A stretch of 64,000 nucleotides of DNA. It comes from Bolinopsis microptera. Lineage: Eukaryota > Ctenophora > Tentaculata > Lobata > Bolinopsidae. The stretch is taken from the NCBI RefSeq assembly GCF_026151205.1, contig NC_087084.1, positions 7,489,394-7,553,393 of the forward strand. The letters run 5' to 3'. Both the position numbers and the translations under genes were made by a program. A model generated the notes under the pieces. It was not told the origin of the DNA and made no database searches. It worked only from the letters and a program-made list of their open reading frames with translations. Below, piece after piece: positions 16,705 to 62,334 of this stretch; position 1 is the first letter of the stretch; each line of letters begins with the position of its first letter.

Positions 16705-19700
16705 ATGGTTTTAAAAAAATGTTTTCTGTCGCTGAAGATTTCACAAAAAAACATTTATCCAGGCGAGGAAACATTCTACCTTCTTAACGGCGAGGGAGCA
16801 CAAGCAACGAATGGATTTGGTTTATTGTTCGTTCAGGTTGGCAAATACTCGGGACCCGTCTTATTTGATGTTATTCCAGGACTTGATCAAGACTGTCTCT
16901 TGGACTACATTTGCCAAACGATGGGGTACTCGTTTGCATACAGCTGTTTTGAGTATTATAATCCAAGTAATGACATGAAATTGATGACTGATCAATATCA
17001 TCGTTTCATAATGGAAGACGTGTCCTGTTCTGTGGATCATAATGACACTGCTTACTCCTCGTACCAACTGAGATTGAAACCTTTAACCCCTATGACGGGG
17101 AACCTTGAGCGCACCAATCAGTTGTTTTGCGGTCCTTTTAAGGGTGCCTGTCCAATTGTGGAGAGAAATAACTTCCTGAAAAGAGTTTGCACGGAAGATT
17201 TAGGGTACACTGTATTTCAATGTTCACATTCTGACGCAATATACATATCTGATCCAGTAAGGAGTGTCAAAGAGTTCACAGCATTCAGCTCAATCTGTGA
17301 CAACGACCCTAAGTTCTACCAATACTGTGGCATTAGAGACTCACTGCAGATCCCGACTACCACTGCTGCACTTTGTGACAAGTACGTTTGTGAAACTGAT
17401 AAAAGTCGTACCTCTTTTTTTGGTGGCACTGTTCCCGCCGTAACGGCTTCAGAATACACGATATGTTATGAATTTAAATATAATTCTGTTCATACACAGA
17501 GCTCATGTGCTAATTTCAATTTAACAAAAAACTTCTGTGCTGCTAAAACCGAAACAGCTGGGAATATAGTTCAGTTAAGAAGCGGCCTGAAAGTTGGCAA
17601 GAACACGGTATGTAATGGCCGGTGTGATGCTCACTACATGTGTGAGGACGAGGCTTTCTGTGGCGGTTATCTGTACGGTATGTACTGCATTGGCTGGGAG
17701 CAAGTACTCAAATACATCAAACCGAGTGAAGTATGCAATGGGTATCCAGCTTATCTATGCAACAATTATGATGATGATGAAATGAACTGTCCAGACCCTG
17801 ACTCTTTGAACATACGAGAGAAATGTTTGAAGCACTTTGATTTGTACTCTATCGAGGGGCCGACTTCTTGGTTTGTTCCCATTTTAAATAATACGAGGTG
17901 CAGCGCTCCGTTTACAGTCGACAAGTTCTCAAATACAGTATATATTGATACGTTTTGCGATAACTTCCTGGATCAAACCAACTGTACGGACCCAAACCGT
18001 TCAAGATTGATCTGCAATATCAAAGGTCATAAGTCAACCGTATCTAAATTCTTTGTGTGCCATGGTGAACCAAAAGTTCCTTCACTATGCGACAACGGAA
18101 TAGACCAGGTCTGTGAAAGAGTATCTCTCACCTGTGAGGTACATAAACACCGACTGTGTGATGGCATTGAGGATTGTCCTGATGCGGCTGACGAGAAATT
18201 GGTTATCTGTTTCTCCATGTCGGAGAAGGTATGTAACAGAGCCTATAAGCACGAGCATGCACTGGAAATACCTTTAAAATGGGTGAGAGATGGTGTGGAG
18301 GATTGTTTAGACGGAATGGATGAGGAGGATGAGTGGCAAACTTGTGGTATTGATGCGACTAAACGATATGTGGTTTCAGCCGATGAACCGTGCAAGGAGG
18401 TTTTTCTCTGTAAAAATGATCAAGCAACATTCATAGAGTTCAAAGATCTCTGTGACGGAATTGATACCTGTGGTAACGAAAAGAGAATGTGTGAGATATC
18501 GCATATGATCAGTCAAACATTTGAGAAAGCAATAACTGTTAAAACATCATCTGGAGCAATTAAAATTTTGCTGTATTGTTTGCCTGGTCTTGAGAGTATG
18601 GATGAACTAGCAATCCAATGTGTTAGCAGTGAAGTCAACCTTTCGGGTTTTGACGTTTTCGGAGTCCAAACCATTTTGTCTATTGTTCACCCTGATAAAA
18701 TGATTAACTGTGACTATACTTTCGGAGAACTTTACCTGATACTGAGTTGCGCAGGGTTTTGTGAAAATTCGATTTGCCCTTTAAAAAACAGGATACAGTA
18801 CGATTCTTGCCCTCAGCAATATTCCAAAAGAATATATACAGTCGCTGAAAATAACTTTCTTACATTTGTAATCAAATCAGGAAATGATTACAAACATGAT
18901 TTTTTCCGTTGTGACAATAACGTTTGCTTGAACTATGACAAGGTTTGCAATGTGGTAGATGATTGTGGAGATGGTTCTGACGAACAATACTGTACCAATG
19001 TGTTTTTGTGTGAATCTAAAGATCAGCTGATCCCAATAACTGAAAAGTGTGATGGAGAAATTGACTGTCTTGACTTCTCGGACGAGTGTAACTCTGACTG
19101 TGGCAAAGAAATCATACAGAGCCCGTTTCTCAAGATCACATGTTGGTGTATATCCGTGGCAGCAATTACTCTGAACATGATTTCGGTTTTACGAACTTTA
19201 ACAGGCTTGAATAAAGAAATGTCAAAGGCGGCTCTCAACAATAAAATTCTGATAATTCTCATTAATGTGGGCGATCTCTTTATTGGAGTGTATCTATTTC
19301 ATATTGCGGTTACGGATACGGTAATCTATGGGAGTAGCTACTGCTTTGAACAGCTGAATTGGCTATCAAGTGTGCATTGTGACATACTTGGTGTCATCAG
19401 CACATTTGGTTACGAAATGTCTCTCCTATCCATGGCAACTCTTGGCATAACCAGGCTGGTGGAAGTAAAACATGGGGCACGGATCAGCGGTGAAGTTTCC
19501 AGGTCGGCTATTCGGAACATTTGTTTAATTACAATGGTTATTTTTCTGATGTCTACTGCAATAGCCGTAGTTCCTTTGGTGCCTCAATTTGAAGACTTCT
19601 TCGTCAATGGAATGACTTATAAACCTTCAATAAAACTTTTTATCGGAGCTCCTGGGAAAGGACTCCATCTTGATACCCTACAGGAGTACTATGGAAAAAT

Positions 19701-20334
19701 AAAGGAGAAAAATCTGAAATGGAGGAGGATAAATGATCTAGTTGATGGTATGTTTACCAAATATTATGGAGAAGATGCACTTGGTCGAAAGAGATTGAAT
19801 TTCTACGGCAATGAAGGGGTTTGTCTTTTCAAATTCTTTGTAAAATCAGATGACCCCCAGAGAATTTATGCATGGGTTGTCATATCAATGAACATGATTT
19901 GCTTTGCAATAATCTCAGTATGTTACATCTTCATTAATATCCGGGCCCGTGCCACTTCCAAAGTGCTCACTCAGGAGAAAGCAGGACATGAGATCAGGAA
20001 AAGAAACAGAAGATTACAGCGCAAAATATCACTTATTATTGGGACAGACTTTTTCTGCTGGCTACCGGTTACCATAGCTTCTGGCCTACACTCGTGGGGT
20101 GTTATCGACGCAACTCGCTATTATGCCCTCATTTCTATAGTCTTCCTTCCAATCAACTCTGTCATCAACCCTGTACTTTATAATGATTTCTTTTCCGTTC
20201 TTTCGGGAAGATGTTACGAAAAAGTGGTAGGAATTTGTTCACAAAATATAGATTCGAAAGAGAACCAAAACACCATTAAAGCCAATGATGGCAATCCTGA
20301 AATAATAGAAATGAAAATTATAAAAACTGATTAA
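16705..20334 (+). CDS. LDL-receptor-A-repeat rhodopsin-family GPCR (LGR/GRL101-like)
   Basis: A single open frame of 1209 codons. Residues about 21-150 resemble a divergent scavenger-receptor cysteine-rich domain (LLNGEGAQ...CLLDYICQTMGY). A long cysteine-rich ectodomain follows, with LDL-A repeats at about 475-502 (LCDGIEDCPDAADE), 734-763 (VCNVVDDCGDGSDEQYC) and 768-796 (KCDGEIDCLDFSDEC). The 7TM domain starts at about 805. TM2 (INVGDLFIGVYL), the FYGNEGVC motif before TM5, TM6 (TDFFCWLP) and TM7 (INSVINPVLYN) match the LGR/relaxin-receptor/GRL101 group. No leucine-rich repeats are visible. The second extracellular loop is unusually long (about 95 residues), and the DRY position reads ITR. 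The frame start has no signal peptide and TTTATCCAG at about 16754-16762 looks like a splice acceptor, so a 5' exon is probably missing. Ligand unknown. Confidence 0.9.
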   Translation: MVLKKCFLSLKISQKNIYPGEETFYLLNGEGAQATNGFGLLFVQVGKYSGPVLFDVIPGLDQDCLLDYICQTMGYSFAYSCFEYYNPSNDMKLMTDQYHRFIMEDVSCSVDHNDTAYSSYQLRLKPLTPMTGNLERTNQLFCGPFKGACPIVERNNFLKRVCTEDLGYTVFQCSHSDAIYISDPVRSVKEFTAFSSICDNDPKFYQYCGIRDSLQIPTTTAALCDKYVCETDKSRTSFFGGTVPAVTASEYTICYEFKYNSVHTQSSCANFNLTKNFCAAKTETAGNIVQLRSGLKVGKNTVCNGRCDAHYMCEDEAFCGGYLYGMYCIGWEQVLKYIKPSEVCNGYPAYLCNNYDDDEMNCPDPDSLNIREKCLKHFDLYSIEGPTSWFVPILNNTRCSAPFTVDKFSNTVYIDTFCDNFLDQTNCTDPNRSRLICNIKGHKSTVSKFFVCHGEPKVPSLCDNGIDQVCERVSLTCEVHKHRLCDGIEDCPDAADEKLVICFSMSEKVCNRAYKHEHALEIPLKWVRDGVEDCLDGMDEEDEWQTCGIDATKRYVVSADEPCKEVFLCKNDQATFIEFKDLCDGIDTCGNEKRMCEISHMISQTFEKAITVKTSSGAIKILLYCLPGLESMDELAIQCVSSEVNLSGFDVFGVQTILSIVHPDKMINCDYTFGELYLILSCAGFCENSICPLKNRIQYDSCPQQYSKRIYTVAENNFLTFVIKSGNDYKHDFFRCDNNVCLNYDKVCNVVDDCGDGSDEQYCTNVFLCESKDQLIPITEKCDGEIDCLDFSDECNSDCGKEIIQSPFLKITCWCISVAAITLNMISVLRTLTGLNKEMSKAALNNKILIILINVGDLFIGVYLFHIAVTDTVIYGSSYCFEQLNWLSSVHCDILGVISTFGYEMSLLSMATLGITRLVEVKHGARISGEVSRSAIRNICLITMVIFLMSTAIAVVPLVPQFEDFFVNGMTYKPSIKLFIGAPGKGLHLDTLQEYYGKIKEKNLKWRRINDLVDGMFTKYYGEDALGRKRLNFYGNEGVCLFKFFVKSDDPQRIYAWVVISMNMICFAIISVCYIFINIRARATSKVLTQEKAGHEIRKRNRRLQRKISLIIGTDFFCWLPVTIASGLHSWGVIDATRYYALISIVFLPINSVINPVLYNDFFSVLSGRCYEKVVGICSQNIDSKENQNTIKANDGNPEIIEMKIIKTD

Positions 20335-26025: not shown

Positions 26026-27654
26026 ATGATGTTTGCATTGACAACTTTACTAGCAGTGGTGGGACTGGTGACCGGTGATGGGGTTGGACACAACAAGCTT
26101 CTCAACTTCCCCTCAGCCTCCATTGCCAACTACATCAGCTACAAGACTGATCTACCTGCTATGACTGGATTGACCGTGTGTGCCTGGCAGCAGAAGAGTT
26201 ACTCCGATGATAAAAGATGCTGGTTCAGCTACGCGGTCTCAGGATCAACCAACGAGATTCTCTTGGGAGAGAGGGAAAAGGGTGTCTACGTCTTCTACTT
26301 TGCTGGAAGCAACTTTGGAGCTAACGTGGGGAGTTTAGAGAACCAGTGGGTGCACGTCTGTGCAGCCTGGGATTCAGAAAGTGGAGTAGCCGTCATCAGT
26401 GTCAACGGAGAAGCAGCAGCAACGCAAGAGAACTTTAAAAAGGGCGCTAGCGTGAGTGCAGCAGGTAACTTGGTTATCGGACAGGAGCAGGATTCTGTAG
26501 GAGGAGGCTTCGACGCTAGCCAAGCGTACGTTGGCAGACTTTACAACATCAACGTGTGGAATTACGCTCTCAACTCCACTGAAGTGTCATTCCTTTACGA
26601 GACAGGTCTTTGTGGATTCGGCTCCACTGAGGAGGACCCCATCATCTCTTATGCTGATATTCTGGGCCAGGATATGACAGGAAATTTGGCCGTTGTTGAT
26701 GGGCTCTGCATTGACCTTGAGGATCCAAGTGAAGGGCAAATCATGAGGTTCCCTCCACAGTCGAAAGCTAGCACGAAAAACTTCTTGCAGTTCACTCCCA
26801 ACTTCGAAGCAGACGATTTCGCAGAGTTCTCCATCTGCACCTGGTTCTTCAAGACATACGGAGACCAGTCTAGGTACTTCCTGAGTTACGCAGTTTCAGG
26901 TCTGGATAATTCCATCATCCTAGGTGAACAGGCCACCCTTGGCTTCTGGGTAAGCGGAGAGAAAATCCTGACAGACATTTTACTAGACCAGCAGACTTGG
27001 TATCACCTGTGTTTTACATGGGCTTCAGACAGTGGTGCTGCGATCTACGTGGACGGGGCGAAAGTAAAAGAAGGTGCTCTAGCCACGGGAAAGACACAAA
27101 ATGCTGGTGGTGTGATGAATGTGGGACAGGAGCAGGACTCAGTTGGAGGAGGTTACGATGCAAACAAGGCTTTTGCAGGGAGTCTGTACAACCTGAACAT
27201 GTTCCGATCAAAGCTGAGCGATGATCAGGTGACAAAGCTTTACGCTGAAGGAACTTTCTGTGAGAAGATTCCAGATGAGATGTGGGAAGCTGGAGCAGTG
27301 ATGGTGGCCTACAAGGACTTGTTCAGTCTCATTCCTGGCGGAGATGTTGTGTTCGACAGTGGGGAAGCAGCTTGGAGACACGGTGCTATCCACTGTAGAG
27401 GAGATGATCTGGACGTGGACGCTCACAAACCAGACTGCTGGAAAACTGAGAAGAATACCAGTTATAAGGACAGCGGAAGTTTGGGATATATTGTGGGGGA
27501 TCTGGATGCAGCTAAGGCAGCGTGTGCTGCTTACGGTAAGTGTAAAACGCTGACGTGCGCCGATAAGGATGGTGTACTGAAGTGTGAGATGAAGGAATCG
27601 ATTGAGAAGGCAAAGAAGGACAAGAAGAAAACCTCATATACTTACAGATGTTAA
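26026..27654 (+). CDS. Secreted protein with two pentraxin/LamG-like domains
   Basis: An intronless frame of 542 codons. Residues 1-18 form a signal peptide (MMFALTTLLAVVGLVTG). Two homologous concanavalin-like domains follow, at about 23-205 and 235-420. Each has the pentraxin signature HxCxxWxS: HVCAAWDS at 110-117 and HLCFTWAS in the second. Each also has IGQEQDSVGGG(F/Y)D or its close variant, matching the acidic, calcium-binding segment of pentraxins. The C-terminal 110 residues form an unrelated lysine- and cysteine-rich tail (CRGDDLDVDAHKPDCW...CKTLTCADKDG...CEM...YRC). By family it is a soluble calcium-dependent pattern-recognition or matrix protein. The start could be either of two adjacent ATG codons. 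AATAAA lies 125 bases after the stop. Confidence 0.92.
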   Translation: MMFALTTLLAVVGLVTGDGVGHNKLLNFPSASIANYISYKTDLPAMTGLTVCAWQQKSYSDDKRCWFSYAVSGSTNEILLGEREKGVYVFYFAGSNFGANVGSLENQWVHVCAAWDSESGVAVISVNGEAAATQENFKKGASVSAAGNLVIGQEQDSVGGGFDASQAYVGRLYNINVWNYALNSTEVSFLYETGLCGFGSTEEDPIISYADILGQDMTGNLAVVDGLCIDLEDPSEGQIMRFPPQSKASTKNFLQFTPNFEADDFAEFSICTWFFKTYGDQSRYFLSYAVSGLDNSIILGEQATLGFWVSGEKILTDILLDQQTWYHLCFTWASDSGAAIYVDGAKVKEGALATGKTQNAGGVMNVGQEQDSVGGGYDANKAFAGSLYNLNMFRSKLSDDQVTKLYAEGTFCEKIPDEMWEAGAVMVAYKDLFSLIPGGDVVFDSGEAAWRHGAIHCRGDDLDVDAHKPDCWKTEKNTSYKDSGSLGYIVGDLDAAKAACAAYGKCKTLTCADKDGVLKCEMKESIEKAKKDKKKTSYTYRC

Positions 27655-30831: not shown

Positions 30832-33800
30832 ATGATCCGGTCACTAGTTGTGGTGTTTTCACTGTTTTTGACATGCTCAACTTACAGCGTGGGGTGTATA
30901 GATGATTTTGATCTCGACGCCAAAGATCGCCAGGTGATAATTCATAATATTTTATTTTTTTGTTTTTCGCTCTCTTGAGCGATCATAAATGATATTGATA
31001 AATATCATTTATCACGGTAAAACGAAATACAATTTGTATTGTAAACGTTTTGACTACATTTGTCGAAGACGAACCGCCGCGTTGTCAACATACGTTGCCA
31101 AGTTGTCTTCATCATTGAAGTCGACATCATCAGCATATTCAGTGTTAAAACGAAGCGGAAGGCCCATTTTTGGTCGCAATTATGCCCAATCATGCCAAAT
31201 CACGTTAACATGATTAAAACCCAAATTTTAGGTACTGTACTTCTAGCTGGTTGTCCCTGAACTCGTATATAAATTTTCATCAAGATTAGACAAAAAATTA
31301 CTGAGTTATGAGCCAAAAACCATACAGCTATATTTGGGCATACTCACCATATTTGATTGATTTTGTCCCGTAAATTGGTCAAATATCAATATTTTAATGA
31401 AACCAACTTTTTATAACTTATAACTTAAGGTCGAAACCCTTAATGTCCGTACAAAATTATGTTTGTTCACGTAATTTCCGGTCAAATAATGTCCGATAAA
31501 TAGCAAATATAAAAGGATTGATTGATATCCAACATTTATTTTTAGGGCTACGACTACCGTATACCACATTCTAACGAGGCTGGCTACTGGAGCGAAGACG
31601 TAATAAAAATAAATAACAAAGACGAAATAACTAAAGTGTTTTGGAATAGGAACTTTTACATTTTTGGAAAATTTATCGGCGAATCAAATGGAGAGGATAC
31701 CACTATTTCAGGTAAATGATCATGAATTAATCAATTATATCCTATTATTTTGATGTCAACTCATACTAAAAATCGAAACGACACCAAAATATCTGGCCAA
31801 ACCTCAATTTTCAAATAGACACAGTTTGGGAAAAAGAAAATACCGGCCGCAGTAAATAGTGAATTGTGGTTTGCAGCTGATTTACAGGTGCATTTAATTT
31901 ATAGGGTTTTGCTGTATAAGAAAACGAACACAAAAGTAAATTATCTTAGAGTATTTGTGGTATCGGGAAAACGAATCAGACAGTGAAATTATAATGCTCG
32001 AGTAATGATTAACCTTTCAGCGGGACTGTATCGTGGCAAAGAGCTTATTTACAAAACCGTGATCAACTGTGATAGTGGAACTTGGAGAAACTGGTGAGTT
32101 TTTATTGAAGATGCTTCCCTCCGTCCTTGTCACTGATCGTTTTGGCCGTACCTGTCCGTACCTGTCCGCCCCTGCCCGCCCCTGTCCGTCCCTGTCCGTC
32201 TCTGTCCGCCCCTGTCCGTCCCTGTCCGTCCCTATCCGTCCCTGTCCGTCCCTGTCCATCTATGTCCATTCATGTCCGACCCTGTCCGTTCATGTCCGTC
32301 ACTGTCCGAACCTGTCCGTTCATGTCCGTCTCTGTCCGTCCATGTCCATTCATGTCCGACCCTGTCCGTTCATGTCCGTTCATATCTGTCCATGTCCGAC
32401 CCTGTCCAGTGTCCGTTTATGTCCGTCCCTGTCCATCTCTGTCCATTCATGTCCGACCCTGTCCGTTCACGTCCGTCACTGTCCGAACCTGTCCGTTCAT
32501 GTCCGTCTCTGTCCGTCCATGTCCATTCATGTCCGACCCTGTCCGTTCATGTCCGTTCATGTCTGTCCATGTCCGACCCTGTCCAGTGTCCGTTTATGTC
32601 CGTCCCTGTCCATCCCTGTCCGTCCCTGTCCGACCCTGTCCGTTCATGTCCATCCATGTCCGTCCATGTCCGTACCTGTCCGTACCTGTCCGTACCTGTC
32701 CGTACCAGTCCGCCCCTGTCCGCCCCTGTCCGTTCATGTCCGTCCATGTCCGCCCCTGTCCGCCCCTATCCGTCCCTGTCCGTACCTGTCCGTATCTGTC
32801 CGTCCCTGTCCGTCCCTGTCCGCCCCTGTACGTCCCTGTCCGTACCAGCTGTCCGTCCCTGTCCGTCCCTGTCCGTCCATGTCCGTCCCTGTCCGCCCCT
32901 ATCTGTTCCTGTCCGTACCTGTCCGTCCCTGTCCGTCCCTGTCCGTCCCTAGTCATCTCTAGACCTAGTCTGTATAACTTTATAAGTAAAACTGTCCAGG
33001 GTTCTCGACAGAAAAACGAAGCAGAAGCGAGTTCTTCTTCATGGTAACATACAAAAAAACCTTACCTCCTGCAAAGCTGGTGAAGATTTCGACTTGATCC
33101 TCAAGAATGATAATCGCCGTTTAGCTAATTGGATATTCAACGCACAACCGCTGCAGCACGACGTTGAATTTTTTTCAAAGAAAACGGTGAGCTATTTTCC
33201 TTAATATCAGATGCCCCCTAATTATTGTTATCTATTGATATGTTTTGACTTTTCGACTAGTTTTTTAATAATATTACTACATATTAACTACACCAGCATT
33301 GCAACGTTTTCCTTGTGGCTGTGCTATTACGTATACAGCAAATATTCGAGAAAACAATTTGCCCATCGCTTTTCTTGCAAAGGGTAAATGGCATTTACCA
33401 GTATTACAACTTTACTAAATGCTGAACAACCTTGTGAATTAGGCTTCTTTTGATTGGTCGGCGTCGACAGTAAGCCTTCCCTACAATGGCTTTCACAACG
33501 CGTTTCCCCAACTCCTGCTGCGTTTTCCCAACTCCTGCTGCTGGAGAGAGAGACTCCTAAATTATATACCATAAATACATTAAACATAGATATCGACAAC
33601 AGACTCCGAGAGTCTTGAAGTTCTGTTACCACCGCTCCTGGTGCAACCCCGCCGGGTTAACAACGGAGAGACAGGGACTTCCAGGGGAGGTCATGGCCTG
33701 CTACTTGCAACTCCTAGGAGTACCCCTTTGGTTTTGGATCGGACACTCAAAAATATCGATAGAGGAGCGGTCTACACGCTCACAGGCTACCACGTCTCGT

Positions 33801-36800
33801 ATAATCCCAAGATTTGACACGTTCACAGGCTACCACGTCTCGTGTAACCCCAGGATTTGACACGCTCACAGGCTACAATGTCTCGTGTTACCCCAGGATT
33901 TGGTTTTGGATCAGACGCTGAAAACAACAATAGAGGAGCGGTTTTCACTGCCGCAGTTAAAAAGGGTAGGAGTAATTACCCGCTGAGTCAAAACCCGCAT
34001 TAGGTGAGCAATTCTATTCGGAGTGCCCTCACGTGTCCAATAGTATCTTAAGGTGGTAAAAAGTGGATATATGAGGTGGCCCGACGGTCCTACGATGTCG
34101 ACAAAAGTCTGCTCCTTCGCAATATAGACCACTCCCCTATAATTGTGTGTATTGGAAGGGTCTGTTATGCTGCGCGCGACGCTAGCCATGTGTTAATTAA
34201 TTACAGTGAAGTTCCTCCTTCGCAAAGTTATTTTCCGCAATTTTCTGGATTTATTTATTGTTGATGCGCGCGGCGCTACATAGTACATTGGTCAAATAAA
34301 TCGTCAATTTTTATAAATTTTACCATGCGCGAATCCCACTCATTTATTATTTTTTCCCTAGTCACACTTTTCACTCGAAAGAATTAATGGTACAAAATAC
34401 AAGTAGGGAAAATTGATCTTACTGGGCCGCGCTCAGCCTGTCATTCCGCGCCGCCTAATCTCTATTTTATATGTTAATGAACAGAATAGCCTGGGGTCCC
34501 CAGGTAAAAATTGATCGTGCGTGGTTTAACCGCGGCGAAATTTTTGTTTCAGACGGATTTCCCTGTACTAAAATGCTTTTGCGGAGTGACAATATTCAAA
34601 CTTCGATAAAGTATATGAAGCGGGTACTTCTCGGAAAGGAAAAATTTAGGCAAACACGATGTGACTATTTTTGGATTGATTTAATACAACTGCAGAAAAT
34701 TATTTAAACTTTAAGCAAAGAAGGGCAAATTTTGACCACCTTTTTGGATTTTTACTAACTAAGTGTGTACCTGTGCTCTGTGGTTTTGCCAGGTAGCTCT
34801 CTTTAGAACTTACGGTAGCGGTGCCGCTACCTGTCGGCCCGATGGAGTGTTGAGAATACGTTCTTACTAGTTACTAGAATGTGATCTGAACTCAAACTCG
34901 TCATCACTGTGTCGGCTGACAGTCCGGTCCGTTGGGTCGGTAAGGAAGGTCGTCCACATGACACAGTACAACTAGACTACAGCACGTTGACTATGTTATT
35001 AACAAACCATAATTAGTGAGTGAGATAACTAACGAATTGAAAATAAATTTGTATCGATTTTCATTTACTTTGTATTTGTATTTTATTCCAAATCAATTTT
35101 AAAACGGTAGCGGATCTGAGCCATAAAATTCTAATTTTATATTATTATTAAAGTTAAACTTAAAGCTTTAAAGTAGGTATTTAAGCAGAAATTGATTTGT
35201 TATTGATTTTCCGCAAATTAATTTAAAAACGGTGATGAGTCTGAGCCACCATAGCAGATTAATGACTAAATGAGTACTATTTTCAGATTAAGGTTTTATT
35301 TAACCAAGCCGTCCACGATAGATATGATACGGGGCCGGATAAATATGAGGGACGCAAGATAGACCTCGGAGCACAAGTTACAGAGAAATCAAAGCGTCCG
35401 GCAGTCAAAGTGGATTCAAAGTTAGTAGCTCAACCCATTTTATTCTGCGATTATTCGAATATCACAGTGGCAAACATGACCGTTGCAATTATACTCACTA
35501 AACTATTTACCCGGCCCTATACTATTATAGATTCGTCCGGGTTTTTGAGTGACAATTCGCGGGAAGAGCCGGGATATTATCAAATAGAGCAATAGACACC
35601 CACGCAGAATCCCTCGATAGCACATTTTCAACTTGTCAAGCGTGTCTAATTAAATTTAATCCGTTCCGTTAATCTAAATATCATTCCGTTAATCGAGATA
35701 CTGTGCTTTTATGGGAATTCCCTCAACGCGCGGTGCATGAGTGAGTGTGTCAGGCAGTGTTTTGCACGTGACTTGCGCGCGACCACTGAACAACTAGTTT
35801 TCGCGTCATGTGACAAGTGCGTACGTCACATGACCTGCCAACGTGCGGCTATATCCCTGCTTGGAAACTGGGTGAAACAAGTTTTCCATCTGAATACCTC
35901 CGCTATGCCAAACAGTTGGTCACAGCCCCTTCCCGCTAGCAGTATAACTATATAGTGTTGATCCTCGATTTGACATCAGGATAGATACTAATAAATTATG
36001 TTCAACCTGAACGAGTTACTCGAAATTAAGCAACTAAATAAGGATCAATAGCGATTATACACTCTCACTCAAAATCCCGGACTCATCTGTAATACATAGA
36101 CACTCCGCCCTCAATATTTATTTAAGTGTAAACACTCGCTCCCGCTCAGGTTTACACCTGAGAAAGTCAACTCGTGCGCTAGCGCGCACTTGTAGCTTTT
36201 TATCAAATAGAATCCGCTGCGCGAATTCTATCTCAAATAGATTACTTCGTGCGGCGTGTCTAACTAGACTCAATGTATTTTACAGTTATACCGGGTCCAG
36301 GACTCTAGGGCGTAAGAGTAAGAGTAAGACTCTAGGGCGTGAGACTTTAGGGCGGCGCCCTAACCCTAACCATCACCCTAACCCTAACCCTAACCCTTAT
36401 CCTAACCCTAACCCTAACCCTGACCCAAACCCAAACCCTAACCCTAACCCTAACCCTAACCCTAAGACCCTAGAGTCTTACGCCCTAGAGTCTTACGCCC
36501 TAGAGTCCGGACCCCAGTTATACCCCTTTACTGTTTTTCAGGCAAAGTCTCACCAAAAGTAGTTTAGCAGGCATATTTTAAGTTCAAAAAAATTCTAATT
36601 GAATGTCAAAAATGACAAAAATAAAAATTAGTCATGTGGAGGTTTTTTAAGAAATTTGCGGAAAATACGCGCCAGAACTGTTGTACAAAATTTGGTACAT
36701 TTACATAACCCAAAATCGCCATATTCAGGTGCCTTAAAAATCATGTTAAAATTGAGTTAGAGATCTGAAATTTTGCAGGGCGTGTAGATGTTGACCAAAA

Positions 36801-44710: not shown

Positions 44711-45317
44711 CTGCTATTTTTACTTATGGTATGTATTAAAAGTCGATTGAAAAATTATATGCTAAAATTTTTTTTTTATTTTATTGAAAATCTTTTCAAA
44801 ATAGTACATACATCAATGTAATTGCATGAAAATAACACGGTCAAAAAGTGATTTCTATGTACTATAATGACGGGAAACCAGAACGTAGTTCGTGCAAAAA
44901 TTACACCTACAAAGTATGGTCCCTGACAAAACATTTCATACAATCAACACATATAAATGTAAGATATATAGTAATAGAGATGATTGTGCAATAATAAAAT
45001 ACAGCGTGCATAAAATATCATAATGTTAATAATTTGTTAACTTTTTAATGAAATAGATTATATCATACAATACTTTTAAAAACCCAACCCACAACCCAAC
45101 CCACCCCTAACCCCTTAAATAGTTTGGATCGGTTATTTTAGATTAGAGAATTGGCATTGGGAGAAATGAGATGCATCTAATCATTATCAGACAGGTAGAA
45201 TTCAGCGTGACTATCGTTTGGATCTGTGGGTAGCATTTCCGACCATAGGTGATCCTTAAGTTTGGCCTTGAAGATATCAGGACAGCTATGGTCTCTTATT
45301 TCGAGAGGAAGTTTATT

Positions 45318-48300
45318 CTAGAGCAGATGTGTCCGATAAAAGAATGATTTCTTAAGGAGACTGCTATTACACTGTGTTTGAACAAGAGTCGTTACATAAC
45401 TTAGGCTGTCATGGTGACATGATCTTAAGCGTGTGCTTCCTTTGTATAGTTGTAAGTAATTAGGAAGCTCTTGTGTGCATACACCATTGACTATTTTGTG
45501 AAACAAGGTCAGGTCATTCAATTCAAACCTCTTGCTGAGAGGAAGGATTTTCAATTGATGACATTTGTAAGTATAGTTTTCAAAGGACTGATAGCTTGTG
45601 AATTCCTCATCAAAAATCCACTTAATACACCTTTTTTGAAAAGCATCCATCTTATCTAGTTGTGTTTTATTAAATGGACGCCAGATTTGGGAACAGTGTT
45701 CAAATTGACTTCTAACAAGTGCAAGGTATAAATTTCTTCTTCGTCTCACATCATGGACAAATGAGCAAGTGCGTTTCAGCAGCCCAAATTTTTGGTTAGC
45801 TTTGGAAAATATTTTAGTTATGTGTTCTTCAAAACGAAAGCCCTGATTTATAACGACTCCAAGATCTGTTTCCGTACTGGTGTAATCTAAGGGAGTATTA
45901 CCGAGCAAATATTGAAATCTGATAAATGGAATAGGTAATATCCTACTGCTGAATTTCTTTCCAGGAATAGAGAGGACTTTACACTTTGATGGATGGAATC
46001 GCATCTTATTTTCTATGCTCCAAGAATTAAGTTCATTTATGTTATTCTGAAGTGTGCAATAATCGTTGTATGATTTAATAGGACTCCATATTTTCGTGTC
46101 ATCAGCATAAAGTACCAAATTTGTGCCTGAACTTAATCTCATGGGAAGATCGTTTATGAATAAGACAAATAGAATGGGACCTAGGACGGAGCCTTGAGGA
46201 ACTCCAGACAAAACAGGTTTGATCTCTGAATGTCTACCATCAACTAAAACACATTGTTCCCGTTCACTAAGATAGTTGGTTAGGAATTTGAGTAGCCTTC
46301 CTTCAATATTAAAGACGAGTTTAAGTTTCTTAAGAATAAGATCATGATTTACAGAATCGAAGGCCTTAGCAAAATCAAAGTAAATGATGTCTACACTCAT
46401 AGTCGAACAGTCATTGAGGGATAGCGTGACACTGTCAATAAAGTTAATCATATTTGTGGTACAAGATCTGTCTCCAAGAAATCCATGCTGTCTATCATCA
46501 AGAAGATGCATTGTTTTATTCAAGAGTTCCTGTTTAATAAGGCGTTCAAATGTTTTCATTATAAGACTAGTTAGGGAAATCGGCCGATAATTCTCAATGT
46601 CCTCCTTACTACCCTTCTTGTGAACCGGAACTACGTGAGCCAGCTTCCATTCAGTTGGAATAATACCGGAGTTATATGATATCTCAAATAAAATTGAAAG
46701 TGGGCAAGCGAGACTACCAGCACAGTTCTTCAGTATCTTACCATGGATACCGTCAGGGCCGCAAGCTTTGTTAGAATTAATGTTCCTTAAGAGATGTTTT
46801 ATATTCTCTGCACAGAAAGTTAAGTCGAATTCAGTATCACTTCTCCAATCAATATCAATATCATACTTAGATTCGTCAGAAAATTGTTCTGAGAAATACT
46901 GATTGAACATATTTGCTTTGTCTAATGGAGATTCTCTGTATGTTTCTCTAAGGTACATCCTATCCGGTATTCTTGAATTCTTTGAAGAGGATTTTACATG
47001 CGACCAGGATTTCTTTGAGATCAATGCAGGGTCATCATCGTTATATAGATTATCGTTCATCTTCTGATCAGATAGATTTTTGAACTGTGTTCTTAGTGAG
47101 CAAAACTTAAAATAATCCTTTTGTTGGCCGGTTAGTTTCCACTTTTCATGAGCTCTTTTTTTCTTCAAGTATGCCTCATGGGCCTCTGAATCAAACCAGG
47201 GATTTCTATATGCTAACTTTAAAGTAATAGTAGGGATATGCTTTGAGATACTTTTCGATATTACAGACTTTAAGGCAAGCCAACAATATTCAGGATCTCC
47301 TAGCTTTAAAAACATAGCATTCCAGTCAATAGAATTCAAGTCTTCGTTAATGGCCGTCCAGTTTGCCTTCTTAAAGTTGAGAATCTTTCTTTTAGGACAT
47401 TTAGAATAAGTGATTTTTGTAGCAACTTTAAAAGCTATTGGATAATGGTCAGATTTGCAAGCACCGTGACCCTTCAATACCGTAAGATCTCTTACTAAAT
47501 TTTTACAATTACTCAAAAGAAGGTCTAGTATGTTACCCTTAACATGTGTAGGACTACTTATACATTGATCTAGATCAAAGTTATGGAATGTTGTAATGAA
47601 GTCCTCTTCAATTAAACTAGAAGGTGTAACAATTCCGTCCTCAGAAAACCAATCTACTCCATTGAGATTAAAATCACCAACGATGAGAAGTTTTTTAGGG
47701 CGTTTGCTTGAGTAGAAAGACTTGATTGTACTGGCAATACTTTCATGGTTTACTGTTCCTAAAGTTCCGACTCTGTAAACCACACAAAAAATGTATTTAC
47801 TTTCACCTATGTTTATTTCAATAGCGGCCATTTCGGACCCCTTACGTACAGACAGTATTTTGATTTCAGCTTGAATATCAGATCTGATTGCTATCAAGAC
47901 TCCTCCACCATTTTTCCTATATTTTTTCGGATTGTTATTATCAGGTGGATGTGATACTTTTGAGCGATCATTTCTAAATACTTCATAGTTAGAGCTTTGA
48001 ATGACCTCTCTATCCATTACAGAGTTTTTAAGCCAAGTCTCTGTAAGCAGAATAACGTCAGGATGTGAATCTTCAATATGTGCATTAAGTTCATATATTT
48101 TGGATTTATCAAGATGAGGTTGCTTACTGTTAAGTTGAGAAAACGGTATCAAGCCTTGAACATTCTGATAATAGACTGATATGTGATTAGGGCCGGGATT
48201 AAGCATACTAGGGTTTGATATTGCAATAAGCAAGAAGTTTAAGGTCAATAGAAGTAAAATCGACATACTCAGAACTTGCCTAGATGTGCTAGTTACTGCA

Positions 48301-48752
48301 CCAAACATTATATTAGCGGCAGTCAGCCTTTCAACTCGGTATCTCCGACTGAGTCTTTGGTACTGAGTAAAGATGAAGTTCTTAATTGCAAAACCAAAGA
48401 TATACAGGTATGCACAATTAATATGAGACACAAGTGGGAAGGCCTTACTGGTATTAAAGTAGAATCTACTGGGATGAATAAACCTATCAATCTCATTGGA
48501 CTCTTTCGAGCTTGTTAAAATCATACCAATTAGACAAAACATGATGAACAAGTGCAGAACATAGATACCAATGTTAGATGGTCTAGAATTGAAGATAAGT
48601 GCATCTTCAAATATCCTAGTCCTGATATCCGATCCAAACCTAACCCCCCTACCCCAAGCAGAACTATCCACTTGACAGGAATTCTTTGGTGCTCTAGAAT
48701 TACAAAAGCAGCCGATTCGCATCCTGTAAAGTGTTAGATCGATCATTGTCAA
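45318..48752 (-). CDS. LINE ORF2: AP-like endonuclease plus reverse transcriptase
   Basis: 1144 codons. The N-terminal 190 residues are unusual, with two or three hydrophobic segments (VLHLFIMFCLIGMIL; MSILLLLTLNFLLIAI). An apurinic-type endonuclease follows from about 193 (VYYQNVQGL, LTETWL, GDFNLNGVDW, SDHYPIAF). The reverse transcriptase starts at about 690 (AHVVPVHKKGSKEDIENYRP), with FDFAKAFDSVNH, SGVPQGSVLGPILFVLFIND and the catalytic YADDTKIW near residue 880. The C-terminal region includes FLLKRTC-type thumb sequence and LVRSQFEHCSQIW. It carries out target-primed reverse transcription of the element RNA. The motif set fits the CR1/jockey group. The hydrophobic N-terminus could be read-through of leader sequence, so the true start may be a later methionine. 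Confidence 0.93.
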   Translation of the reverse strand: MTMIDLTLYRMRIGCFCNSRAPKNSCQVDSSAWGRGVRFGSDIRTRIFEDALIFNSRPSNIGIYVLHLFIMFCLIGMILTSSKESNEIDRFIHPSRFYFNTSKAFPLVSHINCAYLYIFGFAIKNFIFTQYQRLSRRYRVERLTAANIMFGAVTSTSRQVLSMSILLLLTLNFLLIAISNPSMLNPGPNHISVYYQNVQGLIPFSQLNSKQPHLDKSKIYELNAHIEDSHPDVILLTETWLKNSVMDREVIQSSNYEVFRNDRSKVSHPPDNNNPKKYRKNGGGVLIAIRSDIQAEIKILSVRKGSEMAAIEINIGESKYIFCVVYRVGTLGTVNHESIASTIKSFYSSKRPKKLLIVGDFNLNGVDWFSEDGIVTPSSLIEEDFITTFHNFDLDQCISSPTHVKGNILDLLLSNCKNLVRDLTVLKGHGACKSDHYPIAFKVATKITYSKCPKRKILNFKKANWTAINEDLNSIDWNAMFLKLGDPEYCWLALKSVISKSISKHIPTITLKLAYRNPWFDSEAHEAYLKKKRAHEKWKLTGQQKDYFKFCSLRTQFKNLSDQKMNDNLYNDDDPALISKKSWSHVKSSSKNSRIPDRMYLRETYRESPLDKANMFNQYFSEQFSDESKYDIDIDWRSDTEFDLTFCAENIKHLLRNINSNKACGPDGIHGKILKNCAGSLACPLSILFEISYNSGIIPTEWKLAHVVPVHKKGSKEDIENYRPISLTSLIMKTFERLIKQELLNKTMHLLDDRQHGFLGDRSCTTNMINFIDSVTLSLNDCSTMSVDIIYFDFAKAFDSVNHDLILKKLKLVFNIEGRLLKFLTNYLSEREQCVLVDGRHSEIKPVLSGVPQGSVLGPILFVLFINDLPMRLSSGTNLVLYADDTKIWSPIKSYNDYCTLQNNINELNSWSIENKMRFHPSKCKVLSIPGKKFSSRILPIPFIRFQYLLGNTPLDYTSTETDLGVVINQGFRFEEHITKIFSKANQKFGLLKRTCSFVHDVRRRRNLYLALVRSQFEHCSQIWRPFNKTQLDKMDAFQKRCIKWIFDEEFTSYQSFENYTYKCHQLKILPLSKRFELNDLTLFHKIVNGVCTQELPNYLQLYKGSTRLRSCHHDSLSYVTTLVQTQCNSSLLKKSFFYRTHLL

Positions 48753-48931: not shown

Positions 48932-50272
48932 TTAGAAACCAAGAGGATTGAACCATTTTGAATGAATAATAAATATGTAGAATCTTGCAAGAACACCCAT
49001 GCCTTTATTATTTGGGTGAATATCAAAACGCTGTTTCTTAGTGTCAAAATGCGGGAAAAGTCTCGTGTTGATGCAGCCCCTAGCATCCAAGAAAGCAGGA
49101 AAGATATCTAAGAAATAATGCCTATACCGGGAGCACATATTGTAAATCAGATTGTTCATTCGAATAACATTTCTCTCAGTAAATTTACAACCATTAGGAT
49201 TAATTGGAGGAATAGATTGAAACCATACTTTTGCAGTTGGAAGTATCAACTTTATGGAACTCATTAAACTAGATACCGCACTTTTAAGATGTGCTATTCC
49301 ATTATCACAGTACCGTATATCATTAGTACCAACAGACACAAATAATTTAACAACTTCTAAATTAGGGTTATCTTTCACGAATTTCTCGATATCTCTCTTG
49401 ACCTTATCAAGTTTACTGCCTCCAACGGCGATGTTCTTAACTACTTGCTTATTCTTTCCTAACAATTTTTCATCTAATCTAGCAGCAAAAGAGTCCCCAG
49501 CAACAAGAACAATCTTCTGCTTTTTCGTGACTTGTTCATTGACTTGGGATAAATCCACTTGATCCTCTTCAGGAGGTTTAATCTTACGGAACGAGAGACT
49601 AAAACGTACTTGTTCATTTTCACCGACAACATTACCAGAATAAACTGCATGTCTCATTTTAGATTGAGCACCAGGTTTCATAATGTTCATGGTTTTATCA
49701 GTGGCTGGTAGCACATGATCAGGACTATCGCTGTTTTTATTACTATCAAGAACGATTGAAAGTTCTCGTGGTGCACCTAGTGAAACAGTACAAATTGAGC
49801 TAGTCTGAGATATGAGTGGCTCGTTATCACGATGGAGTCGGAGAGTAGACTTGCTCGATGCATAACGAGTTATCAGGCAGGAGTCCATATCACCAGATGT
49901 TGAAGGGTGATTGTTAACCACTTCCATGAGCTTGCAAAAATTGGGGTAATCGTTTATAGGAATTGGTTTGTTCATAACATGACCATAGTTATAAGAATGA
50001 GTGGTCGGACTAAGCCACTGAGTAGTGACTGGACGACCCCTCTGTTTTAAGTTAAGAGAGTCAAGCTCTTTTCGGAGGTCATCACAAAGGGTTTTGTCCA
50101 AGTTAAGGTCGTTAACATGTTCAACAAGGGATACAATGTCATCAGACGAGGCAGTAGATTCTGCAGCAGATTCAGAAGCAACGTCGAGGGTTAGGGCTTC
50201 CAACATTGCACGTTTTTCAGCTAGAGTGGCTGTTTTGAGAAGATCGACGAACACTTTGGGTAATTCTTGCAT
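48932..50272 (-). CDS. LINE ORF1: AlkB-like dioxygenase fused to SGNH hydrolase
   Basis: 446 codons. Residues 1-85 are acidic and helical. About 105-231 form an AlkB-like 2-oxoglutarate/Fe(II) oxygenase: CLITRYASSKSTLRLHRDNE holds the HxD pair His147/Asp149, SICTVSLGAPRELSIV the core strand, MKPGAQSKMRHAV the second iron ligand His208, and RFSLSFR the 2-oxoglutarate arginines 223 and 229. About 253-440 form an SGNH hydrolase: VLVAGDSFAARL (Ser261), AVGGSK, SVGTND (315-318) and FDIHPNNKG (Asp417, His419, one residue closer than the usual DxxH). AlkB enzymes remove alkyl groups from RNA or DNA bases; SGNH domains in CR1/L2-type ORF1 proteins are esterases that may act at membranes. A joint role in protecting or trafficking the element RNA is inference. 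Confidence 0.86.
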   Translation of the reverse strand: MQELPKVFVDLLKTATLAEKRAMLEALTLDVASESAAESTASSDDIVSLVEHVNDLNLDKTLCDDLRKELDSLNLKQRGRPVTTQWLSPTTHSYNYGHVMNKPIPINDYPNFCKLMEVVNNHPSTSGDMDSCLITRYASSKSTLRLHRDNEPLISQTSSICTVSLGAPRELSIVLDSNKNSDSPDHVLPATDKTMNIMKPGAQSKMRHAVYSGNVVGENEQVRFSLSFRKIKPPEEDQVDLSQVNEQVTKKQKIVLVAGDSFAARLDEKLLGKNKQVVKNIAVGGSKLDKVKRDIEKFVKDNPNLEVVKLFVSVGTNDIRYCDNGIAHLKSAVSSLMSSIKLILPTAKVWFQSIPPINPNGCKFTERNVIRMNNLIYNMCSRYRHYFLDIFPAFLDARGCINTRLFPHFDTKKQRFDIHPNNKGMGVLARFYIFIIHSKWFNPLGF

Positions 50273-50947
50273 TGTTTGTCGAAGTAGGACGCCAGGTGAT
50301 CAAGGGGCAGATCAGGAGTACAGCAGTGTCGGCAGGACAACTATCAGTGATCAGAGACCTTGTTAAGATTTCAGAGATGTCCCAGCCAAGCTGGGACAGA
50401 GAATAAAAGACTGCCGTACACCGCTACACTGCCTCACTACCCCCGTCTCAACCCGGGACACCGGCTGACTTTACTCCAGCGACATTCTGTCCACGAGTGG
50501 ACCCATCGTCTTAGCCATGCCTAATAAATGTAATAGATTTGTAGTGTTGTAATTAGTTTAAAACTAATAAAAAAAAATTGATAATGGTACTACGTAGGCA
50601 GGGAAGCATTACATACTTCGCCTACCCATGGGTTTCTACTGTCTACAATCAAAGGCCCTAGCGTTAATTTTAATGTCCATTCCAATAAACTCCGACAAGG
50701 TATAGTTAAATTAAATATATTAAACGAATGCCTTTGAGCGTTCATTTCAATGTCCGTTCAAAATTATGTCAGTTCACGAAATATCCGATCAAATAACGTC
50801 CGATACTGTACAATTATTGAGGACGTTACACTTACAGAAGGAATTTATTTAATGTTGTCTGCGAGATCCCTAATACTCCTCGCCTCCTAAGATGGTATAC
50901 TGCAGCCGGGGAGGGCTATGGTTAGTCCATAGTCGAGCACATCACAT

Positions 50948-51140
50948 GCTGTCTGAACATGCCGTTTGAACGTGCCGTCTGAACATGCCGTCTGAACATG
51001 CCGTCTGAACATGCCGTCTGAACATGCCGTCTGAACGTGCCGTCTGAACATGCCGTCTGAACGTGCCGTCTGAACATGCCGTCTGAACGTGCCGTCTGAA
51101 CGTGCCGTCTGAACATGCCGTCTGAACATGCCGTCTGAAC
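50948..51140. repeat. 13-bp minisatellite CATGCCGTCTGAA
   Basis: About 14 tandem copies with single A/G variation (CATGCC or CGTGCC). The minus-strand ORFs here that read FRRHVQTA repeats are produced by the 13-bp unit cycling through frames and are not genes. Confidence 0.95.
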
Positions 51141-60400: not shown

Positions 60401-62334
60401 GCGGACCGTGGTCCGCGGACCGTGGTCGGGCTATCTCGATACTGCCCAAATTTTCGTAGAGGTGTACAAAAAGTTCTGTTGGGAGATATCTAACCTCAGT
60501 AATGGGACAATCAGACGAAGTTTTTCATTTCTAGGACAGAACTTGAAAAGATCTTTAATCGACTGGGGGACATCAAATTTAAGAATTTTGAACAGTTCCA
60601 TAAATGTATGGTACATGTGCAGATTCTCCAGGTTGATAATTTTCTGCTCAGTGAATAGCGGTTTAGTGTGTTCAAGACAGTAGTTCTTGCTAGCCATATG
60701 TTCGTTATAAGTTCTTGAACGTGCACAGGTTAAGTAGTATTCTTTATGATCAAAATTGGGAATGTTACCAAATAGCAGTCTTATACATCGTTTTTGAATT
60801 GCAAAGATTTTATTCAGCATATGTTTAGGGATCCCACCCCAGCAAATTATACAATAGCTAAGATGTGACATAAAAAGAGCATTGTATAGTTTCAAATATT
60901 CAGATTTGGGAATGAATTTGCAAATTCTCTTAATCGATACAATACTGGAGTTCAGCTTTAAAGATAAATGATTAAGATGTGGTTCCCAACATAGCTGTTC
61001 GTCTATTATCACCCCAAGAAACTTTGTACATTGAACTTTTTCTAGCTTTTTGCCATCTAGTTGCAATTTATTGTGTTAAATGGTGGACATGTTGGTGCAT
61101 TTAGATTGCTACTTTGAGATCTGTTGAGTGTTGCTCAACCAAAAGAAATATAGTGAAGTATGACATACCTTATCGGACGTTAAATTACCGGATATTGCGT
61201 GAACAGCTTATGAACAGATATTAGAATGAACGTTAGGTCCTCTATACTAGCGTCCAATTAATGTCCGTTCAAATGAAGTCCGATAACGTAAACTTGTACG
61301 CCCCAATCTAAACACCTCCCTCAGGATGATGGCAACATGGTCCTCTACGCTGGAGACGCTGCCATCTGGGACAGTAAAACTAATGGAAACACCGACGCTG
61401 TGGAGCTTGTTGTCCAGAACGATCACAATGTTGTTTTGTACAGCTATGAAGATAGAAGTGTCTTGTGGAAGACTGATACTAACGGAAACAACTGTCCTGA
61501 TGCCCAATTCGTTGAGAGTAAGCAGATTAATGATTTGTTATAATATAATCTGCTTCTTTTTATATCTTTTCTGTTTAATTGATTGATATTTGTAGGCTTT
61601 TTAGTTTGATGTCAAAGTGATGATATCATTGAAGACTAAAAGGTTTGTCCCACAAAAGCTTAGACAACATCCTCTTTCAGACTGTGCTGCAGATAAATGT
61701 ATCCGGGAATCTCAGGTCGCTTCAATTCTTTCTCTTGGTAAGAATTTAAATGATCTGGCGATTGTTTATAAGGCGCAAATATTACATGTATTAGGATGCA
61801 GTGAAACTATATAAAATGTTGAATGTTGATAATTTCTTCTCGCAGCTTGACATTTGAACAAATTAACACGACGATTTAATAGGTAAGAAGATCGTCTCAA
61901 AGAACGGAAAAGCTGTGTTCACAATGCAAGCTGACGGTAACCTAGTCCTGACTTGTTCTATTAACAAGAATGTTCTGTGGAAGTCAGACACCAGTGGAGT
62001 TGCTGGAGGACTCAAATTCCAGGTACAATAATTATAAAATCATTCCAAATTGTTACCCAATCAATTAGATAACTTAACGAAGTTACCAATTTAATCCAGA
62101 TTAATTAATTCATCGATTAATTAGTCAATTTAATCCAGAGTGACGGTAACCTTGTCCTCTACGACGCAGACAGAAAGGACCTCTGGGCATCAGACTCTAA
62201 CGGTAACTATGACAACGCCGAACTAGTAGTACAGGACGACATGAACGTGGTTCTTTACTACTCTGCTGATAGAAAGGCTCTGTGGGCTACCGATACTGAT
62301 GGGGCTGAGTGTGCTGATCCTCCTAGCACTGTTG
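51479..62334 (+). CDS. Secreted mosaic protein: kringle, paired novel repeats, tectonin and bulb-lectin domains (3' end not found)
   Basis: Twenty-two exons join in phase to 898 codons: 51479-51530, 51905-52031, 52340-52387, 52613-52686, 53162-53317, 53594-53716, 53895-53980, 54152-54227, 54486-54685, 54969-55109, 55245-55341, 55529-55654, 55836-55975, 56293-56366, 56594-56723, 56914-57090, 57401-57536, 57794-57939, 61325-61517, 61681-61737, 61883-62022, 62139-62334. Signal peptide: MRFFVAFAVLGAIALGQG. Kringle, residues 18-100: GYRCQKWASQSPNAH, ENYCRNP, GLWCYND. Two homologous ~146-residue modules, 101-247 and 248-393: CDD...FxDG, GAWNQL, CRNTGGPYGIMA, SWSCSNAA, DTTVYCRK. Six tectonin repeats, about 394-625 (VWGVNR..IYR). 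Then two bulb-lectin units with QxDxNxVxY mannose-binding motifs (QDDGNLVLY, QDDGNMVLY, QSDGNLVLY). It is likely an extracellular glycan-recognition protein. The last exon is phase 1, so the gene continues. Confidence 0.88.
53485..53592. repeat. 11-bp TTTAATTCCTG repeat in an intron of the mosaic lectin gene
   Basis: About eight copies of TTTAATTCCTG with small changes run up to the acceptor at 53593, whose CAG seems to be derived from the repeat edge (AAATTCCAG). Confidence 0.85.
58262..59028. mobile_element. Tc1/mariner-type MITE in intron 18 of the mosaic lectin gene
   Basis: A 767-bp element whose ends are long perfect inverted repeats (CAGGGTGGGCCAAAAGTCAG at the left, its complement at the right, about 34 bp). 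TA flanks both sides (58260-58261, 59029-59030). CAGGGTG...-type ends with TA duplication are characteristic of the IS630-Tc1-mariner group. No intact transposase; short internal ORFs are unconvincing. Confidence 0.92.
59031..61130 (-). pseudogene. 5'-truncated LINE reverse-transcriptase remnant split by a TIR element
   Basis: Minus strand. 61066-60455 encodes an RT C-terminal part: KLEKVQCTKFLGVIIDEQL, IISRT-like thumb sequence, ALFMSHLSYCIICWGG and IQKRCIRLLFG. The frame is interrupted within Lys-Ile-Trp by the 1027-bp insertion 59420-60446 and resumes at 59419 with KIWNDLIPYVFEICDANEDG down to about 59240. The family differs from the intact LINE at 45-50 kb. The upstream RT and endonuclease are absent. 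Confidence 0.82.
59420..60446. mobile_element. TIR DNA transposon with 8-bp target duplication, inside a LINE
   Basis: A 1027-bp element with near-perfect ~125-bp inverted ends starting GGCAGTATCGAGATAGCC and filled with iterated GGTCCGCGGACC palindromes. It is flanked by CAAATTTT on both sides (59412-59419, 60447-60454), an 8-bp duplication as made by hAT, P or Merlin families. The ends do not match a family I can name. Internal minus-strand ORF 60078-59749 has cysteine pairs (FCVFCNKRHAGISC, KCNNC) but no clear domain. A 27-bp GATGATGTGAACCCTGCTTG repeat occurs three times at 60236-60322. Confidence 0.9.
61165..61285. repeat. Small inverted-repeat element with TTATCGGAC ends
   Basis: TTATCGGACGTTAAATTACC at the left and AATGAAGTCCGATAA at the right form inverted ends. 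Related sequence occurs at 31430-31505 and 50733-50811 (TGTCCGTTCAAA...GTCCGATA). Probably a dispersed MITE-like family. Confidence 0.6.

Follow-up and report, generated by a model that had tools for sequence, protein, structure and literature searches.

Can the first open reading frame (ORF1) of a long interspersed nuclear element (LINE) carry a nucleic-acid demethylase next to its esterase? The question is raised by a 64,000-nucleotide stretch of the ctenophore Bolinopsis microptera (contig NC_087084.1, positions 7,489,394 to 7,553,393; referred to below as the window), for which an earlier sequence-only reading had proposed that an open reading frame (ORF) at 48932-50272 fuses an AlkB-like domain to an SGNH esterase. 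We find this frame on the minus strand (which that reading had left unstated), with 446 aa counted from an ATG that is preceded by in-frame stop codons upstream; the same register on the plus strand contains many stops. The residues singled out at the time (H147, D149, H208, and R223 and R229 in RFSLSFR) and the SICTVSLGAPRELSIV strand are all located at the numbers given for them. What the computation shows is a pair of predicted folds and their order, the conservation of both active sites, the fact that the fusion recurs among related proteins, and the LINE setting of the window copy. Profile matches, the predicted fold and the ligands kept in relatives all support an AlkB-SGNH fusion in a LINE ORF1.

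Searched as a single sequence, the window ORF1 is hit over residues 51-231 by the PHROGs 'alkylated DNA repair' profile (6.6e-11). ALKBH3 is reached at only 0.0058 by single-sequence phmmer, PF13532 is not called by Pfam on the window protein alone, and NCBIfam gives no match (among three relatives searched with NCBIfam, P0004 yields AlkB at 2.7e-4, far under the cut-off, and P0081 and P0103 yield nothing). When the window ORF1 is aligned with 67 relatives (alignment A1), PF13532 is matched individually by 54 of the 68 members, the window protein not being one of these 54. The sequence-only reading had staked its claim on a double-stranded beta-helix, and on other copies keeping the domain and its metal ligands; neither the predicted fold nor the related proteins refute it. 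Such an AlkB-type fold is indeed predicted for the ORF1 domain, the best structural matches of the model being ALKBH2 and ALKBH3 (many of these structures solved with DNA), at about 18-22% identity to the human proteins. Several of the viral fold matches listed are plant virus polyproteins or replicases, the matching domain within each not being specified. That ORF1 contains an AlkB-type dioxygenase is, in our judgement, nearly certain. A protein search with the AlkB domain alone returned 56 proteins, among which the sole named cellular gene outside metagenome annotation is fungal (P0295, 5e-4); no donor of the domain was identified.

The signature of AlkB homologues consists of HxD, H and RxxxxxR (PMC544882). 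To follow these residues through the family, 120 listed ORF1 relatives were aligned, four of which (P0012, P0094, P0098 and P0099) are short and lack the HxD part, leaving 116 to be scored. All five predicted ligands are kept in 110 of the 116, and the six exceptions are R223C (three times), R223Q, H147Y and H208Q (once each). Counted separately, H147 is found in 115/116 and D149 in 116/116 relatives with a letter at the position, H208 in 119/120, R223 in 116/120 and R229 in 120/120. Within the domain, pairwise identity is 48% at the median and can be as low as 24%, so this conservation does not merely reflect recency. Only 17 of 186 domain columns are conserved to at least 97%, and these include four of the five ligand residues (R223, at 96.7%, falls just below); the probability of finding at least four of five there by chance is about 2e-4, a value uncorrected for the relatedness of the sequences. 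Further conserved positions are W86 (W in 111/112), Y94 (Y in 103/112) and Y96 (Y in 100 and F in 7 of 110), which correspond to the W and YTY of ALKBH3.

The full set of SGNH blocks that had been read from the sequence is borne out by a PF13472 match (2.9e-12), with the Ser, Gly, Asn and His blocks all present; S261, G285, N317 and H419 are kept in 113/115 relatives. With the A1 profile, a crystallised esterase of a LINE ORF1p is found at 2.4e-7 (4c1b_A, named ORF1-encoded protein). This chain is the zebrafish ZfL2-1 ORF1p, a type IV protein (PMC3905857) with which the window ORF1 has the SGNH esterase in common; the difference is an AlkB domain lying between the N-terminal helices and the esterase. 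ZfL2-1 ORF1p has an N-terminal coiled coil, and its esterase binds lipids and shows no binding to oligo-(A) RNA (PMC3905857). In the window ORF1, a helix is predicted at residues 17-41; a role of residues 1-42 in multimerisation would be a guess. PF17182, the OSK domain, is also matched by 13 of the 68 A1 members (best 1e-6), and LINE ORF1 esterases may, judging from such profile matches, lie near the SGNH-like domain of Oskar. Distances in the AlkB half and the SGNH half correlate strongly over the 107 of 121 rows in which both are present, the window among them (Mantel r 0.864, a value that 0 of 1000 permutations reached). Because the two halves go together in this way, the pattern fits one old fusion that was passed on as a unit.

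The LINE setting follows from the second open reading frame (ORF2), whose ATG at 48746 lies 185 nt downstream of ORF1. Its domains are PF14529 and PF03372 (endonuclease) and PF00078 (reverse transcriptase, RT; 1.6e-30), and the start MID is common to the window ORF2 and the eight relatives inspected. The YADD, ETW, GDxN and SDH blocks, which we take to be catalytic, are invariant in the 22 rows of alignment A3. We regard the locus as one copy of a LINE of animal type, with an apurinic/apyrimidinic (APE)-type endonuclease and RT. An intact RT frame had been claimed beside ORF1. Its place and strand hold; its intactness does so in part only, as an in-frame stop at 45318 ends it 47 codons short of its closest relative P0121 (1189 aa); over residues 540-1144 of the TTG-started frame, the part used for the search, the two are 98% identical. 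Full-length ORF2 exists among relatives, and the window copy may, as far as its reading frames tell, be unable to move on its own.

Just before the endonuclease, ORF2 carries a hydrophobic segment followed by NPGP. Of 72 aligned ORF2 rows, the window being one, 71 have NPGP, relatives carrying NPS(L/M/I)LNPGP or similar. At least one hydrophobic stretch precedes NPGP in 70 of 71 near-full-length ORF2 relatives, at a permissive hydropathy threshold by which 60 of the 71 are also flagged after NPGP, in the endonuclease-RT part. Over the same threshold no hydrophobic segment is found in the window ORF1, nor in 119 of 120 ORF1 relatives, so that any link between ORF1 and membranes would have to come from the esterase. 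The hydrophobic N-terminus and NPGP of ORF2 would fit a membrane setting. We know of no role for the conserved NPGP segment. It resembles a 2A/StopGo motif after a signal-like stretch; D(V/I)Ex is given as conserved in the 2A motif (PMC4981915), and because it is absent from all 71 NPGP octamers examined, recoding at this site is uncertain.

At the ends of the element (Table 1) no convincing target-site duplication was found, only shared 8-mers that we take as chance. An 18-copy CCCTAA array is present elsewhere in the window, at 36358-36465, and a 13-nt minisatellite (15 copies, 50944-51140) lies near its 5' side. Relatives were also sought in IMG/VR and GTDB contigs, where pattern searches hit 53 and 33 stretches for ORF1, and 420 and 66 for ORF2; none was confirmed by tblastn for either frame. 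This absence is what a eukaryotic element would lead one to expect, but it proves nothing, since close records may be missing from the set searched. One ORF1 relative (P0013) and one ORF2 relative (P0165) are labelled as bacterial metagenome-assembled genomes, which is probably contamination.

Table 1. Positions of the element's features in the window.
Feature	Position	Strand	Remarks
ORF1	48932..50272	minus	446 aa from ATG; order: N-terminal helices, AlkB domain, short low-confidence linker, SGNH esterase
ORF1 residues 1-42	50147..50272	minus	predicted helices 6-14 and 17-41
ORF1 residues 43-234, AlkB-type Fe(II)/2-oxoglutarate dioxygenase domain	49571..50146	minus	
HxD iron ligands H147, D149 (predicted)	49826..49834	minus	coordinates computed from ORF start
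H208, distal iron ligand (predicted)	49649..49651	minus	
RxxxxxR motif R223-R229 (RFSLSFR)	49586..49606	minus	predicted 2-oxoglutarate and substrate arginines
ORF1 residues 250-440, SGNH (GDSL-type) esterase	48953..49525	minus	S261, G285, N317, D417/H419
ORF2	45318..48746	minus	1142 aa from ATG; hydrophobic N-terminal part, endonuclease, reverse transcriptase
ORF2 residues 158-186, hydrophobic segment (158-176) then NPSMLNPGP	48189..48275	minus	just before endonuclease
Probable 5' leader of element	50273..50560	minus	inferred; GC 0.49 against 0.39 in ORF1; upstream end undefined
Probable 3' tail, GGGTT/TTAGGG-like short repeats	45080..45114	minus	just past ORF2 end region; seen in a single copy

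What kind of AlkB enzyme is it? A profile of the AlkB domain alone (A2), searched against solved chains, matches ALKBH3 (5.4e-14), ALKBH2 (4.7e-11) and E. coli AlkB (0.0035); at E up to 1 no other chains are matched, those of ALKBH5 and FTO included. Two residues past the HxD Asp, E151 is E in 114 and D in 2 of 116 relatives; in the alignment it faces the acidic residue of HSDDEP (ALKBH3) and of HRDDE (ALKBH2). The acid equivalent to E151 contacts the methylated base; in entry 8jnk, an ALKBH3 'active site crosslink', the sequence as listed has Cys at this position, which suggests that the residue adjoins the base. The arginine of the GxxR strand (R169, in 117/119 relatives) aligns with ALKBH3 and ALKBH2 as well. 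One result weighs against this assignment: FTO, ALKBH5 and ALKBH6 also match the fold model, so that the fold alone cannot separate the subtypes. On sequence, the repair type (ALKBH3/2-like) is favoured over the m6A-eraser type (m6A, N6-methyladenosine). The RNA-repair or anti-epitranscriptomic role suggested by the sequence-only reading is thus a plausible one for the predicted enzyme.

ALKBH3-type enzymes act on 1-methyladenine (m1A) and 3-methylcytosine (m3C), which stop reverse transcriptases. E. coli AlkB reverses both (PMC544882). Their removal would be useful to the element because such marks block its own RT. In the mechanism that we propose, ORF1p would bind and package the element's RNA in a ribonucleoprotein (RNP) and the esterase half would attach this RNP to membranes or lipids, a role proposed for ZfL2-1; the AlkB half would strip Watson-Crick-face methyls (m1A, m3C) from the packaged RNA, and perhaps also demethylate single-stranded DNA at the target nick. 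Taken as a whole, an ORF1 that joins an ALKBH2/3-kind dioxygenase to a type IV SGNH esterase and uses the AlkB part to clean the element's RNA is the explanation towards which we lean, on balance. The mechanism proper, repair of the element's own template, falls somewhat short of an even chance in our estimate. More tentatively still, there might be a diverse animal LINE clade with an RNA-repair enzyme of its own, in which membrane-docked ORF1p demethylates the RNA prior to reverse transcription and the hydrophobic N-terminus of ORF2 ties the RT to the same membranes. If true, RNA alkylation or methylation of RNA by the host would affect LINEs of this clade less than it does other LINEs.

The AlkB domain might instead be an epitranscriptomic eraser that removes m6A and lets the element escape m6A-based surveillance by the host, as proposed for the AlkB of an orchid Ty3/Gypsy element. 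This precedent is itself ALKBH5-like (PMC9289625), that is, of another AlkB subtype; furthermore, the A2 matches contain no m6A-eraser chain and E151 follows the ALKBH2/3 pattern. Given the A2 matches, the E151/R169 pattern and the subtype of the orchid protein, we prefer repair of Watson-Crick-face methylation and place m6A erasure second, as an unlikely reading. It is less probable again that the domain acts on DNA, repairing alkylated DNA that is single-stranded during target-primed reverse transcription, either at the target site or in the new cDNA: the best structural matches are DNA-repair enzymes, many of them solved with DNA, but ORF1 proteins are presumed to be RNP packaging proteins (PMC3905857), which makes RNA the likelier ligand. 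We also doubt, and slightly more strongly, that the captured AlkB serves only as an RNA-binding or structural module devoid of catalysis. Such a module should lose its ligands, whereas, in a set as diverged as this one (median pairwise identity 48%), all five persist in 110 of 116 relatives; the six rows that lack one ligand might indicate that catalysis is dispensable in a few lineages. Finally, that an ordinary esterase ORF1 shows the AlkB pattern by chance could be read from the missing PF13532 call on the window protein, but is contradicted by the profile matches, the fold matches and the ligand conservation in relatives, and was set aside as next to impossible.

Elsewhere in the window, the minus strand at 12304-13861 has three disrupted ORFs in which motifs resembling those of RT can be seen (LYPSI, IPTGNCIS and FIDD); they are perhaps a Penelope-like remnant, and two of the three were examined with Pfam and have no match at 1e-3. 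A 211-aa ORF at 60431-61066 (minus strand), also without a Pfam match at 1e-3, resembles the C-terminal part of another LINE RT ORF. A 10-nt repeat array of about 81 copies (32146-32950) gives PCPSLSV-type repeat ORFs in all three plus-strand frames, which are unlikely to be a gene. The plus strand further holds an ORF with LDLa and seven-transmembrane (7TM) receptor domains (16705-20334) and one with two pentaxin stretches (26026-27654), both of which indicate an animal host. Rfam gives 0 matches in the window at gathering scores.

How does this ORF1 compare with known systems? Human ALKBH3 and ALKBH2 are host repair enzymes, to our knowledge without an esterase, whereas the AlkB domain of the window is part of a LINE ORF1. 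Plant RNA virus polyproteins likewise bring an AlkB domain with conserved HxD, H and RxxxxxR into an RNA replicon (PMC544882); there it sits inside replication polyproteins, and here in a LINE ORF1 beside an esterase. We describe a type IV LINE ORF1 with a second enzyme domain: the ORF1 type is known, and the added domain was not found described. Term searches of the main texts gave no mention of dioxygenase or AlkB in an ORF1 survey (PMC4120745), and none of dioxygenase, fused or additional domain in the esterase paper (PMC3905857); PMC7915175 names, in its excerpt, the gene alkbh6 only. Among the literature matches listed (subscription papers, preprints and Repbase lying outside this scope) there is no report of an AlkB-esterase LINE ORF1, and no paper combines ORF1, esterase, non-LTR (long terminal repeat) and AlkB, the best match having three of the four. 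The relative P0081 is auto-annotated as 'alkylated DNA repair dioxygenase AlkB/lysophospholipase L1-like esterase'. Little is understood of what LINE ORF1 proteins do, and their esterase was a puzzle before; now that a second enzyme domain brings a defined cofactor and few candidate substrates, ORF1p function becomes assayable.

The closest parallel is the orchid Ty3/Gypsy element Gypsy_Pa_2799, also a retrotransposon carrying an AlkB-type demethylase, which is ALKBH5-like and active on m6A single-stranded RNA in vitro (PMC9289625). That element is of the LTR type with AlkB as a separate ORF and no esterase noted in the excerpt, whereas the window has a LINE ORF1 with an ALKBH2/3-like domain; given these differences in element type and AlkB subtype, the two are probably independent acquisitions. 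If our reading is borne out, LINEs would be a further retrotransposon class, after the orchid Ty3/Gypsy, to acquire a nucleic-acid demethylase, and one of another subtype. Two such acquisitions would suggest that retroelements more widely are under pressure from RNA methylation or alkylation.
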